NCBI RefSeq assembly: GCF_024648885.1
Contig: NZ_JANBBF010000008.1
Span: forward strand, 496,001 to 560,000
Direction of reading: 5' to 3'
DNA: 64,000 nt
Origin: Prauserella salsuginis
GTDB taxonomy: Bacteria; Actinomycetota; Actinomycetes; Mycobacteriales; Pseudonocardiaceae
Of the stretch, positions 6,969 through 37,270 are shown in pieces (the first letter of the stretch is position 1; each line of letters starts with the position of its first letter). Below the pieces are notes generated by a model. It saw only the letters and a program-made list of their open reading frames with translations, was not told the origin of the DNA and ran no database searches. Made by a program: the position numbers and the translations under genes.

Positions 6969-7814
6969 GTGCCCGAGGGCGACACCGTCTTCCTCACCGG
7001 CGCGCTGGTCGGCCGCGCACTGACCGGGCGCACACTGACGAGAACGGATTTCCGCGTCCCGTCCCTGGCTACCGCCGACCTCGCCGGATCCGAGTTCGCC
7101 GGCGTGCGCACGGTGGGCAAGCACCTGTTCTTCCGGTTCCGCGGCGTACCCCACGGCTCCCGCCGCCGCGCCGACGGCGCCGGCCGTGAGCTGAGCCTGC
7201 ACAGCCACCTGCGCATGGACGGCGCCTGGCGCACGTACCCCTCCGGCCGCCGTTGGGGCGTACCCGCCCATCAGGTGCGCGTCGTGCTGGCCGCCGGCGA
7301 CGTCGAAACCGTCGGCGTGCGAGTGCACGACCTGGCCCTGCTGTCCACATCGGACGAGCATCGCTGGGTCGGCCGACTCGGGCCCGACCTGCTCGATCCG
7401 GAATGGACCGACGACCACACCGCACGCGCCGTCGCCGCACTGACCGCCGACCCCGGACGCGAGATCGGCAGCGCCCTGCTCGACCAGACCGCAGTGGCCG
7501 GCATCGGGAACCTGTACAAGGTCGAGATCTGCTTCCGGTTGGGCGTCACACCGTGGACCCCGGTGTCCGATGTAGACGTAGCCGCCGCCGTCGCCCTGGC
7601 ACGGCGGCTGTTGCGCGCCAATGCGACACGCTGGGAACAGAGCACCACCGGCGACCTCGCCCGAGGCAGGCGCACCTGGGTGTACGAACGCACCCGCCAG
7701 GGCTGTTTCCGCTGCGGCGGCCCCGTCCGGGTGGCCGACCAGGGCGCCGGCATCGAACGCCGACCGACCTGGTTCTGCCCGCGATGCCAACACGGCCCCG
7801 TACCGCACCGCTGA
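6969..7814 (+). CDS. nei: Fpg/Nei-family DNA glycosylase (endonuclease VIII-like)
   Basis: A 281-residue base-excision-repair glycosylase/AP lyase. The N-terminal Pro-Glu pair after the initiator (PEGDTV) is the catalytic nucleophile and helper, and PEGDTV is typical of actinobacterial Nei2 rather than MutM. A helix-two-turn-helix segment (GSALLDQTAVAGIGNLYKVEI) and a C-terminal zinc finger with CFRCG and CPRCQ follow. It removes oxidised pyrimidines in related proteins. It lies three bases behind the ParA gene and starts at GTG 6969. A 19-bp tandem array begins six bases after its stop. Confidence 0.92.
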   Translation: MPEGDTVFLTGALVGRALTGRTLTRTDFRVPSLATADLAGSEFAGVRTVGKHLFFRFRGVPHGSRRRADGAGRELSLHSHLRMDGAWRTYPSGRRWGVPAHQVRVVLAAGDVETVGVRVHDLALLSTSDEHRWVGRLGPDLLDPEWTDDHTARAVAALTADPGREIGSALLDQTAVAGIGNLYKVEICFRLGVTPWTPVSDVDVAAAVALARRLLRANATRWEQSTTGDLARGRRTWVYERTRQGCFRCGGPVRVADQGAGIERRPTWFCPRCQHGPVPHR

Positions 7815-7819
7815 CTCCC

Positions 7820-7895
7820 GCGCCTCCCCTCGCGACCCGCGCCTCCCCTGGTGACCGGCGCCTTCCTTGGTGACCGGCGCCTTCCTTGATGACAC
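7820..7895. repeat. Intergenic tandem array A, 4 x 19 bp
   Basis: Four head-to-tail 19-base units at 7820, 7839, 7858 and 7877 follow the consensus GCGCCTYCCYTSGYGACC. They diverge gradually along the array, and a partial fifth copy follows. The period is not a multiple of three, and the array lies immediately after the nei stop codon. No hairpin dominates it. The function is unknown. Confidence 0.85.
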
Positions 7896-8034
7896 CGCGC
7901 CATGTCCGGTCACACCGAACCGTGGGGGCACGCGAAGGCTCGGGGGGTTCAGCGCGTCCCGTGACGGCGCGGCTCCCCGTAGCACCGGAACCGGCCGCCG
8001 GCGAGCCGTGTCCACGCGCCGCCGGAAAAACACG
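7896..8034. other. Noncoding stretch between array A and the micro-ORF promoter
   Basis: This belongs to the 809-base gap between nei and pyrD. No frame here looks like protein and no RNA family is recognised. The last 35 bases are locally A-rich (GGAAAAACACG), just before the candidate promoter. Confidence 0.5.
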
Positions 8035-8064
8035 TTGCCGGACACGACCGCACGCGCCTAGCGT
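8035..8064 (+). promoter_or_regulatory. Consensus-like promoter of the micro-ORF
   Basis: TTGCCG (8035-8040) is followed by an 18-base spacer and TAGCGT (8059-8064), close to the actinobacterial housekeeping promoter consensus. The predicted start near 8071 gives a leader of about 26 nt. Confidence 0.65.
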
Positions 8065-8076
8065 GGCGGGTACACG

Positions 8077-8092
8077 AGAAAGGAGGTGGTCC
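8077..8092 (+). promoter_or_regulatory. Extended Shine-Dalgarno complementary to the whole 16S 3' tail
   Basis: AGAAAGGAGGTGGTCC matches the complement of the actinobacterial 16S rRNA 3' end (AGAAAGGAGGTGATCC) at 15 of 16 positions; the single difference is a G that can still pair with U. It ends four bases before GTG 8097. Its right half is one arm of an inverted repeat with 8145-8153. Confidence 0.8.
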
Positions 8093-8153
8093 GACAGTGA
8101 AGAACTACAGGACTCGTGAGGTGGCCGTCCGCTAGGACGGTATGCGGACCACC
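8085..8153 (+). promoter_or_regulatory. Nested hairpin enclosing the micro-ORF
   Basis: Outer arms 8085-8093 and 8145-8153 are perfectly complementary over 9 bp and bracket the coding sequence. The inner arms 8125-8130 and 8135-8140 hold the stop codon. Pairing of the outer arms would block the downstream part of the Shine-Dalgarno sequence. Confidence 0.65.
8097..8135 (+). CDS. 12-residue micro-[15 protein letters not shown]
   Basis: GTG 8097 to TAG 8135 encodes [12 protein letters not shown]. No domain can be assigned. The case for translation is the strong promoter at 8035-8064 and the exceptional ribosome-binding site. The stop codon lies in the loop of a 6-bp hairpin, CCGTCC-GCTA-GGACGG (8125-8140). 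An outer 9-bp repeat, GGTGGTCCG (8085-8093) with CGGACCACC (8145-8153), can mask the ribosome-binding site. It could be a leader peptide, a regulatory RNA that binds 30S subunits, or a free micropeptide. The next gene, pyrD, begins about 490 bases downstream, so classical attenuation is not obvious. Confidence 0.55.
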
Positions 8154-8221
8154 GCGTGCCGCCCGGCGAATACCAGGCGGTCACCGGCCCCCGATGCTCC
8201 CGAGGACCGGTCCACCACGGG

Positions 8222-8245
8222 CCCGGACGGCTGACGACGTCCGGG
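8222..8245 (+). terminator. Possible terminator of the micro-ORF transcript
   Basis: A 7-bp stem, CCCGGAC with GTCCGGG, encloses a 10-nt loop about 90 bases after the micro-ORF stop. A second small hairpin of the form GGGG-TTT-CCCC follows near 8254-8264. Together they would bound a transcript of roughly 180 nt. Confidence 0.4.
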
Positions 8246-8350
8246 AGTCGCATCGGGGGTTTCCCCATTCCGCACCCGCCGACCGAGATCGGCGAGTGGC
8301 TCCGCCCGCGGCACCGGGAAACCCCGGCCGACGCACCGGGGGCTGCCCGG

Positions 8351-8500
8351 CTTGGCCGTGTCCCACCAGCATCTTTCTGTGTCCCACGGCCTCCGCTGTG
8401 TCCCACAGCTCTGCTGGGCGGCAACGGCCGCTGCTGCGCGCCGCGCTGCTGCACCCCGGCTCAGCCGTGTCCGGCCGGCTTCGCCGTGTTTCCGTGTCCC
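8351..8500. repeat. Intergenic degenerate array B (GTGTCCCAC core)
   Basis: The core GTGTCCCAC occurs at 8358, 8379 and 8398 (spacings 21 and 19). More decayed copies follow: GTGTCCGGC at 8467 and GTGTTTCCGTGTCCCGG from 8486. The cores are often preceded by CTTNGCC or CTNNGC. It is part of the gap before pyrD and resembles arrays A, D and E in period but not in sequence. Confidence 0.65.
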
Positions 8501-8623: not shown

Positions 8624-9673
8624 GTGCTCTTCGACAGTCTGCTCCGGCCCGCGTTGTATCGGCTGCACGGCGGCGACGCCGAGCAGGTACACGAACGCAC
8701 CGTTCGTGCGCTCGGCCTGCTGAGTTCCGCGCCCGCCCCGGTCCGGGCGGCACTGCGGCGCACCTACGCGGCCGACACGCCGGTCACCGCCTTCGGAGTT
8801 CGGTTTCCCGGCCGCGTCGGGCTGGCCGCGGGCATGGACAAGGACGGGCGGGCACTGCACGCCTGGCCCGCGCTCGGGTTCTCGTTCGTCGAGGTCGGCA
8901 CCGTCACCGGACGTGCCCAGCCGGGCAATCCCCGGCCGCGACTGTTCACGCTCCCCGCGAGCGACGCGGTGATCAACCGCATGGGCTTCAACAACGCGGG
9001 CGCCGAGGCACTCGCGGCGCGGCTGGCCCGTGACGGCACACCGGACGTCCCGCTGGGGATCAGCATCGGCAAGTCGAAGGTCACGCCGATCGACGAGGCC
9101 GTGGCCGATTACGAGACGTCCCTGCGCGCCCTGCACCCGTTCGCCGACTACGTCGCGATCAACGTCAGTTCGCCCAACACGCCGGGCCTGCGCAGCCTGC
9201 AGGACCGCGATTCCCTCACCGAGATCCTCGCCGCACTGCGCGATCTCGCCCCCACGACGCCGTTGCTGGTGAAGGTCGCGCCCGATCTGACCGACGCCGC
9301 GCTGGGAGAACTGTTGCAGGTGTGCACCGACCACGGCGTCGCCGGGGTCATCGCCACCAACACCACGCTCGGCCGCGACGGCCTGGCGGACGCCGACGCC
9401 GCGGCAGCGGCCGAGACCGGCGGGCTCTCCGGCAGCCCGCTCACGCGGCGAGCCCGCGAGGTGGTGCGATTCGTCCACACGCGCACCGGCGGCGCGCTGC
9501 CGATCATCGGGGTCGGCGGGATCGGCGGGCCGGCCGACGCCGAGGCGATGCTCGACGCGGGCGCCGCGTTGGTGCAGCTGTACACGGCACTGGCGTTGCA
9601 CGGCCCGTCGGTGGTGCGCTCCATCAACCGGAGTCTCGCCGCGGAGCACGCACGGTGGCGCGACGTGCACTGA
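8624..9673 (+). CDS. pyrD: Dihydroorotate dehydrogenase (quinone), class 2
   Basis: A 349-residue FMN enzyme that oxidises dihydroorotate to orotate at the membrane, the fourth step of pyrimidine synthesis. The N-terminal helical extension ([22 protein letters not shown]) marks the quinone-linked class. FMN and substrate motifs include [10 protein letters not shown] (about 66-75), [20 protein letters not shown] with the catalytic Ser, and [15 protein letters not shown]. Start GTG 8624; the ATG at 8614 is in another frame. It is isolated from other pyr genes and converges on pspM. Confidence 0.95.
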
Positions 9674-9718: not shown

Positions 9719-10696
9719 TCAGGACAGCTCGCGCAACGCAACGGCGAGACCGGCGAGCCGGTCGGTCGCGTCGGTGAGTGCATCCTTCGCCGGGCTCGCG
9801 CCGTCGCTGCTCGCCGCGACGGCCCTGCCGGCCGCGGCGACGAGCGCGCCGTACCCCTCGAGGCCCTCGTCGAGCTGCTCGCGCAGTGCCGTCACCGCCG
9901 AGTCCAGGCCGTCCCGTTCCCGTGCCGGCGCGGCGTCCCGCGCGCGTTCGATCGATTCGAGACGAGCCGCGAGCCCCCGCAGCGCCGCCGAGGCGTCCAT
10001 CGCCGTGGCCCGCGCATCCTCGACGTCGAAGCCGGTCGCGCCCGAGGGCGCACCGTGCTGCGGTGTGGCCAGCTGGTCGAGCAGGTCCGTGAGCGTCCGC
10101 TCGCTGTCGACGAGCTTCTCCATCGGCGCCCGCGCAGCCGAACCGGTGGGCGGCAACATCGACGCCGGATCGGGCCGCGGCGGTTCGACCTTGCCGAGTC
10201 TGCGCAGTTTCGTACCGGACGACACGGCCAGTGCGCCGAACACGACCGTGCCGGCCGCACCGGTCAGGGCACCTTCGACGCCCTCGTACGCCCCGATGAC
10301 GCCGAAGTACCCGGCGACCGCCCACAGCACGGCCAGCAGCGTCAGCATCGCCCACAACGTGAAGGCTCGGCGCGTCCAGCGCACCCGCCGGGCGTGTTTG
10401 GCTTCGGGAGAGTTCCAGGCGGCGAGCTTGTCACGGACGTCGGTGACGACCGTGAGGTCCACCTTCGGGCGCGGCGCGGGTGGCCCGCCAGTGCGCGCAC
10501 CGTCGGACCTTCCGGTCCGGTCACCGTCCCGATCCGACGCGCGGTCCGCACTGCCGGATGCCCGCTGGTCCTCCGGCGGCAGGTACTTCTGAACCTTCTC
10601 CTGGGCCTTCTGCGCGTAGTCGGGCAGTCGTTCAACGTGCTTACCGAGCTTCGCCGTCAGCTCGCTGAAATCTCGTCTGCCCGACTTCCCCGCCAT
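9719..10696 (-). CDS. pspM: PspM-like envelope-stress membrane protein
   Basis: A 325-residue protein. The N-terminus (SELTAKLGKHVERLPDYAQKAQEKVQKYLPP) resembles the start of the mycobacterial PspA partner (PspM, Rv2743c). Two membrane helices lie near residues 115-165 (LWAMLTLLAVLWAVAGYFGV, then a Gly-rich helix), and the C-terminus is helical. A GGGAGG site lies upstream of ATG 10696. It follows pspA by 45 bases on the same strand, matching the clgR-pspA-pspM order known from mycobacteria, where the membrane protein anchors PspA. The name depends on synteny as much as on sequence. Confidence 0.75.
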   Translation of the reverse strand: MAGKSGRRDFSELTAKLGKHVERLPDYAQKAQEKVQKYLPPEDQRASGSADRASDRDGDRTGRSDGARTGGPPAPRPKVDLTVVTDVRDKLAAWNSPEAKHARRVRWTRRAFTLWAMLTLLAVLWAVAGYFGVIGAYEGVEGALTGAAGTVVFGALAVSSGTKLRRLGKVEPPRPDPASMLPPTGSAARAPMEKLVDSERTLTDLLDQLATPQHGAPSGATGFDVEDARATAMDASAALRGLAARLESIERARDAAPARERDGLDSAVTALREQLDEGLEGYGALVAAAGRAVAASSDGASPAKDALTDATDRLAGLAVALRELS

Positions 10697-37070: not shown

Positions 37071-37270
37071 GAAAGTGATTACTCCTCGTACTGCCGCACG
37101 CGACACGCACTTCCCCGCCCTTCGGGGCCCGTCCGGGTACGAGGCCGGCCATCGATCGAAGCTCACGGGAGGAACTCCCGGGAGCCACTACCGAGGACCG
37201 GCTGCGGCGTCCCCGCACGCGGCGCGTATCGCCTGCGAAACTCTCTCTAAGTGTGTCTCGGGCCGCGCCC
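37071..37270 (-). ncRNA. Candidate Actino-pnp-type leader RNA
   Basis: The pnp 5' region contains a stable hairpin, CGGGAG-GAA-CTCCCG (37166-37180), within larger possible pairing of GGCCGG (from about 37143) with CCGGC near 37198-37202. A conserved Actino-pnp RNA motif is known upstream of actinobacterial pnp genes. Position fits, but I could not align the consensus by eye. Confidence 0.4.

Follow-up and report, generated by a model that had tools for sequence, protein, structure and literature searches.

Ms_IGR-5, the RNA family to which the locus described here belongs, is reported to have its origin, as IGR-5, in Li et al. 2013. In Rfam (RF02471) it carries the label "Actinobacteria sRNA". 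According to the available parts of the studies concerned, a family member, SLIV_16488, is transcribed in Streptomyces lividans (PMC8079986), the S. avermitilis homologue forms its own sRNA transcription unit (PMC8780764), and in Mycobacterium smegmatis ncMSMEG15794c overlaps IGR-5 (PMC10454040). For M. abscessus and M. smegmatis, the accessible text of a Ribo-seq study reports ribosome footprints on homologues of MS_IGR-5, with the caution that most characterised E. coli ncRNAs also carry footprints (PMC4974804). The accessible portions of the Ms_IGR-5 literature yielded no description of the reading frame, the 16S rRNA complement or the helices P0 and P2 dealt with below, and a literature search found no mention of TREVAVR, the peptide end encoded here. 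Other short frames on regulatory RNAs are known from the dual-function sRNAs SgrS/SgrT and SR1/SR1P (excerpted text of PMC11133741), from cysteine-rich leaders of mycobacteria, which are attenuator leader peptides (PMC4633059, in part), and from a Staphylococcus aureus uORF with an extended Shine-Dalgarno sequence (PMC13009471, in part). The main text of a survey of peptide-coding sRNAs (PMC5521070) names neither RF02471 nor CC2171, a Caulobacter sRNA, and a search for CC2171, Caulobacter and sRNA together found no paper.

The window analysed here, 64,000 nucleotides of Prauserella salsuginis DNA, contains a match to the RF02471 covariance model at 8072-8268 (forward strand, as are the promoter and all parts of the RNA below), with 89.4 bits against a cut-off of 45, E 1.6e-18 and model positions 1-184. 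A full-length score above the curated cut-off makes the locus a member of the family, and it is the single match across its own genome. With matches counted at E <= 0.001, the family is found in 7 of 7 genomes of the genus, 30 of 41 relatives, 253 of 298 genomes of the order, 249 of 394 of the class and 70 of 396 of the phylum (35 of these 70 above the cut-off), and is absent from 14 named control genomes. A new covariance model, R1, built with the structure containing P0 and P2, has matches in 108 of 296 phylum genomes, a smaller draw than the 396, so that the two rates are not strictly comparable. Among 39 genomes lacking an RF02471 match, themselves part of a larger such set, R1 adds one (G035, a recognisable copy at an apparent contig end) and gave no match in the other 38. 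Seven genomes of f1 g271 and six of f8 match neither model, and their families mostly carry the RNA. Such gaps inside RNA-carrying families suggest its repeated loss, and some genera seem to be without it. Ms_IGR-5 is probably a small, stand-alone RNA, and it occurs in many Actinomycetota. ARAGORN finds neither tmRNA nor tRNA in the window, and no tRNA-like ends flank a tag frame. Elsewhere in the window, at 37144-37202 (-), lies an Actino-pnp cis-regulatory RNA (RF01688, 70.7 bits).

The comparisons below use 182 loci derived from the RF02471 search, all of them anchored, from which 9 duplicates were removed to leave 173 distinct cores, a set biased to high-scoring and mycobacterial loci whose 165-row form amounts to about 33 sequences after similarity weighting. 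For the counts on P2, 7 of the 173 were dropped, their 3′ element scoring too low, leaving 166; one further row, with a different stop distance, was dropped to give 165 for the stop-letter test, the mutual-information scan and the predicted probabilities. A 200-base stretch without the RNA (L223), the last in a set of 20 retrieved regions, is not counted.

Upstream of the RNA is a promoter-like pair of hexamers, TTGCCG (8035-8040) and TAGCGT (8059-8064), 18 nt apart. The initial annotation had taken this promoter to be near consensus; it agrees at only 7 of 12 bases and a consensus scan finds none. Its position is nevertheless kept: all 173 relatives have TANNNT 4-9 nt 5′ of the ACAC position, against 0 in a downstream control window, and 143 have TTG upstream. 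At the other end, right after P2, a GC-rich hairpin without a T-run (8186-8261) is predicted by folding to be terminator-like; a scan for T-run terminators found none.

That hairpin, and the presence of the dihydroorotate dehydrogenase gene pyrD (8624-9673) downstream on the same strand, would suit a leader peptide or attenuator that acts in cis on the gene that follows. The RNA is preceded by a formamidopyrimidine-DNA glycosylase-like gene (6969-7814). In other lineages the flanking ORFs, selected by length and codon GC so that some may be antisense, fall into many unrelated clusters on both strands, the largest comprising 50 and 40 of 376. The mycobacterial group has what we take to be a pabC-like gene upstream and a nitrobindin-like gene convergent, the Streptomyces group presumably a convergent pdxH-like gene, and the genes downstream are, on our assumption, RNase Z-like (L193), gpm-like (L097, Parafrankia) or map-like (L090, Cellulomonas). 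Among the flanking ORFs of relatives there is no constant downstream gene, which such a leader requires. Since the identity and strand of the neighbours differ between lineages, and since the S. avermitilis homologue is, in the available part of that report (PMC8780764), its own sRNA transcription unit, control of a downstream gene in cis is hardly credible. Of other features nearby, a tandem repeat (7817-7901, 4.4 copies of a 19-nt unit) lies just 3′ of the glycosylase-like gene. Between the RNA and pyrD, at 8360-8500, loosely repeated TGTCCCAC/GCTGTGTCC stretches are visible by eye, for which Tandem Repeats Finder lists nothing. Beyond pyrD is a gene for an Rv2743c-family protein (9719-10696, minus strand), beside ORFs that by eye resemble PspA and an HTH regulator.

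Near its 5′ end the RNA carries a 16-nt anti-16S site, SD1 (8077-8092, AGAAAGGAGGTGGTCC), in which 15 of 16 bases match the complement of the 16S rRNA 3′ tail and the remaining one, G8089, forms a G-U pair; here the initial annotation was exact. A search of the assembly itself for the 16S tail gave no match, and the tail, ...GGCTGGATCACCTCCTTTCTAAGG, was taken from a genome of the same genus (G005, locus L330, assigned as 16S from its sequence, without a model). Pairing with the tail, G-U allowed, extends over 16 of 16 positions in 155 of the 173 relatives and over 15 in the other 18. AAAGGAGGTGRTCC is present as one copy at this locus in each of the seven genus genomes, the extra copy being the 16S rRNA of G005, while its backward control pattern occurs once in G005 and in none of the other 6. 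The calculated duplex with 16S rRNA has an energy of −27.8 kcal/mol, compared with −10.7 for AAGGAGGA. A search for the motif, as had been suggested, was run in a more general form and gave at least 120 stretches; these were kept out of the conservation counts because the search pattern contains the motif. In the available text of PMC12274833, MazF-mt11 cleaves mycobacterial 16S rRNA at C/ACCU, 11 nt from its 3′ end. This position fits a 16S end at ...CACCUCCUUUCU, from which we infer that the SD1 complement starts opposite the final base of 16S rRNA. A second, short anti-16S match, GAGGTG (8118-8123), is inside the reading frame, 9 nt 5′ of its stop.

The reading frame that follows SD1 is, as first described, one of 12 codons, from GTG at 8097-8099 to TAG at 8133-8135. 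ATG, GTG or TTG is exactly 12 codons 5′ of the stop in 167 of 173 relatives, offsets of 8-11 and 13 codons giving 0-4 each. Three relatives have a 13-codon frame and three have no start: L028 and L076, with ATC/ATT, and L250, which reads through the stop position as TGG. CTG is the start in 0 of 171. Of the 170 with an assigned start, 104 use TTG and 167 have a spacer of 10-12 nt between GAGG and the start. Compared with start usage in ordinary actinobacterial genes, weak starts are probably over-represented here. The stop is at a constant distance from GAGGTG in 171 of 173, though its letters change (TAG 147, TGA 14, TAA 10, with TGG in L250 and CGC in L030, where a TAG is found 3 nt downstream of the usual position); for this keeping of a stop, Fisher's test gives p 2e-13 by a statistic that ignores relatedness. 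Indels between SD1 and the start are not multiples of 3, whereas those of the frame are.

More distant loci were compared in two sets. Twenty were found with R1 and are biased to the structure of that model: 19 have SD1 at 16 of 16 and 19 a complete P0; 17 have a standard stop, with ATG, GTG or TTG 13-15 codons upstream in 17 of 17. Nineteen others, from other classes, were found with the Rfam model, which does not draw P0, and agree less well: SD1 is 16 of 16 in all 19, P0 is complete in 18, and of the 18 with a standard stop a permissive search assigned ATG, GTG or TTG to 8, CTG to 5, ATT or ATC to 4 and no start to 1.

What SD1 and the frame share is a structure in which the two are folded together. 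P0 pairs CACG (8073-8076) with CGTG (8115-8118), that is, with codon 7 and the first base of codon 8. It was not foreseen and surfaced in a mutual-information scan, in which pairs of P0, P2 and P3 make up 7 of the 11 top column pairs, the other 4 not being helix pairs. All four P0 pairs can form in 153 of 173 relatives, against a maximum of 122 in 500 shuffles, by way of CACG/CGUG, CACA/UGUG, CCAG/CUGG, CCGA/UCGG and CGGG/CCCG, among others. P2 pairs 8120-8129 (the last base of codon 8 to codon 11) with 8176-8185 (GGCGGTCACC). In 166 relatives 1599 of 1660 P2 cells are paired, compared with a mean of 1503 and a maximum of 1515 in shuffled sets, and sliding the helix by one base lowers the count to 717 and 499. 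Five of its ten pairs, and the total, exceed all 300 shuffles, the remaining pairs being nearly invariant. Within the genus, five members have C-G and two have T-A at the pair 8126/8179. Sequence comparison has in this way shown P0 to close the 5′ end onto codons 7-8 and P2 to tie codons 8-11 to the 3′ strand.

P1 pairs GTCC (8089-8092), which is also the last 4 nt of SD1, with GGAC (8110-8113). With 97.6% of cells paired and zero pairs changed on both sides it is nearly invariant, so that covariation cannot test it; it is by folding and conservation that P1 is shown to join the end of SD1 to codons 5-6. RNAalifold, which recovers P0 and P2 unprompted, favours a hairpin within SD1 (GGA/UCC) over P1. 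P3 (8130-8133 with 8165-8168, topped by a variable apical hairpin) spans 8130-8168 in the minimum-energy fold, including the stop codon and 8145-8153, and is weaker, with 80.8% of cells paired. Between P2 and P3 the 3′ strand has an unpaired bulge, AATACCA (8169-8175), with the consensus AATNCC, by which the 3′ element was located in relatives; its last A is present in only 83 of 173. For the structure as a whole, an alignment of 42 of the 165 sequences, picked by similarity and by a length of 98-130 that under-represents long-insert lineages, gives 93.8% paired cells, with 42 double changes compared with 10.5 in shuffled sets (0 of 500), while one of the five measures is unclear (24 further pair types compared with 21.5, 45 of 500). 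The minimum-energy fold of the window sequence is P0-bulge-P1-P2-P3 (z −4.2), with a fifth P0 pair, 8077-8114, and a partly paired start codon. Over 165 relatives the mean predicted probability of P0 is 0.50, and the mean probability of being unpaired is 0.61 for the SD1 bulge and 0.56 for the start codon.

With P0, P1 and P2 closed, a bulge displays the 12 nt (AGAAAGGAGGTG, 8077-8088; 11 nt, 8078-8088, in the minimum-energy fold) that complement the very end of 16S rRNA. Such a display of a full-length anti-16S site could by itself make the RNA a decoy or reservoir that holds free 30S subunits by their 16S tail, the frame being weak or incidental and going untranslated. The prevalence of TTG starts, the GAGG-to-start spacer and the CTG, ATT or ATC starts in 9 of 18 distant loci are all in keeping with this. 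However, a decoy has no need for a kept start position, frame length or stop identity, and we think it an unlikely account, if one to be taken seriously.

Several other pairings were considered. The inverted repeats of the initial annotation, one of 9 bp (8085-8093/8145-8153) and one of 6 bp (8125-8130/8135-8140), are both present. The longer, proposed to mask SD1, has its 8145-8153 strand in 7 of 7 genus members and is not conserved beyond them; even in the genus position 8093 is A in 3 of 7, which breaks the ninth pair without compensation. Covariation between its strands, the check put forward with the proposal, was not seen: pairing is 717 compared with a shuffled mean of 723 in 166 relatives at the same stop offset, a test limited by the varying length of the insert. 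As a conserved feature the mask was rejected. The helix by which Rfam would mask SD1 (8085-8090/8124-8129) has 1 covarying cell, a value reached in 101 of 500 shuffles, which questions the drawn structure and not the membership of the locus in the family. Pairing of the downstream strand back onto SD1, as feedback would need, was also rejected, complementarity in 166 relatives being in no clear excess over a reversed control (runs of at least 9 in 23 compared with 8, runs of 7-8 in 60 compared with 92). A stem of at least 4 bp between the spacer and codons 2-4 is present in 65 of 166, where shuffles average 42 and peak at 59, too weak an excess to be counted as a helix.

The 12-codon frame could be taken for a micropeptide gene on a dual-function sRNA, its product of 12 amino acids having the form [M/V/L]xxx[R/W]T[R/C]EV[A/T][V/A][R/S/G]. 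At first glance the peptide does appear to be conserved, its E and V being present in 171 of 171 relatives. These two are, however, always encoded by GAG and GTG, with zero synonymous changes in 171 of 171 (a GTA replaces GTG in one distant locus outside that set, L355). Five other codons swap amino acid with pairing preserved. In the same 171, codon 5, mostly NGG, encodes R in 118, W in 42, G in 8 and others in 3, codon 7 is R, C, S, G, E, Y or P, codon 10 is A, T, V, S or F, codon 11 mostly V or A and codon 12 mostly R, S or G. In L051, for instance, a P0 of CUUC/GAAG goes with E in place of R at codon 7. Codons 2-4 have a GC content of 0.33, compared with 0.71 in the 3′ flank. In four deep relatives (L222, L343, L351 and L359), which look like one group and are counted as one case, the frame is shifted, with starts from a permissive search (TTG in two, ATT in two), and gives xTSGGGSS-like peptides with the same CUAG end. 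The position of the frame is kept and the peptide is not, because codons 5-12 follow the base pairing of P0 and P2. Peptide conservation beyond the demands of pairing, as expected of a dual-function sRNA, was not found, and a micropeptide gene is very unlikely with frame, start and stop kept while the amino acids follow the RNA. To judge from the aligned loci, what selection appears to preserve is that the frame is translated, not what it encodes.

Of the three functions offered in the initial annotation, a regulatory RNA that binds the 30S subunit fits best, and a leader peptide and a micropeptide gene fit poorly. We regard it as evenly balanced whether Ms_IGR-5 is a free-standing transcript of about 190 nt that is opened by a ribosome, with docking and opening as follows. 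The 16S tail of a free 30S subunit would pair in the bulge. With 11-12 nt of SD1 exposed in the bulge and its final 4 nt held in P1, full pairing with 16S rRNA would open P1 around the start codon, and the docked subunit would displace P1 and start at the weak codon. P2 starts 23 nt past the start codon, which is taken to be beyond an initiating ribosome, and would have to melt before the stop. In moving 12 codons the ribosome would melt P0 and P2 and reach the stop. There the GAGG of the second anti-16S match ends 8 nt 5′ of the last sense codon, a spacing like that of a second Shine-Dalgarno sequence. Since translation would melt both P0 and P2, a single ribosome would flip the RNA from closed to open and free its 3′ strand (AAUNCC...CAGUCACC). 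More speculatively, the RNA might serve to report or to buffer free 30S subunits whose 3′ tail is intact, by way of the freed strand or of RNA stability.

A G-rich single-stranded bulge and the conserved unpaired AATNCC bulge could be the interaction sites of a trans-acting sRNA or sponge that has no ribosome trigger, SD1 pairing with C-rich loops (e.g. those of 6C/B11, the loops of 6C RNA being C-rich) or the 3′ strand with mRNA starts. This leaves the kept frame and stop unexplained, and also why the complementarity should start right at the end of the 16S tail, and is distinctly unlikely. Returning to the ribosome-opened RNA, its extension to a sensor of ribosome status across the phylum, with a toehold bulge, strand displacement by the 30S subunit, a peptide-independent 12-codon frame and a signal through the 3′ strand or RNA stability, is put forward tentatively, as a somewhat unlikely proposal. 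Such a sensor would track the pool of free 30S subunits whose tail is intact, for example when toxins cut that tail off. Should the mechanism prove right, bacteria own a free-standing RNA triggered by the 16S tail, and the sensing of free 30S subunits by the cell would become directly testable in Streptomyces.

Whatever its output, the RNA is real, widely conserved and oriented to the ribosome; it belongs to a known family, its structure is new and its frame is independent of the peptide. A catalogued RNA in this way gains a structure supported by covariation, a wider range and an unusual property, the apparent selection for translation and not for its peptide. The Rfam drawing of the same family pairs SD1 with codons 10-11 (8085-8090/8124-8129) and, unlike the structure here, shows both strands of P0 and the 3′ half of P2 as single-stranded. 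SgrS/SgrT and SR1/SR1P are likewise small stand-alone RNAs with a short frame; in the available description of them, however, the peptide is a functional product, whereas here it varies and one group uses another frame. Attenuator leaders and uORFs are alike, in what is accessible of their description, in that translation of a short frame controls the RNA, and in extended Shine-Dalgarno pairing and non-canonical starts, but for the RNA here no constant downstream gene was found, and it has its own promoter-like site and terminator-like hairpin. CC2171 (RF01867) has a consensus that likewise opens with GAAAGGAGGUGAUCC, a complement of the 16S tail. The locus is not a member of that family (window 8070-8161 scores 15.9 bits against a cut-off of 75), and the anti-16S opening is all that CC2171 shares with Ms_IGR-5; it is possibly a parallel, independent RNA of the same design.
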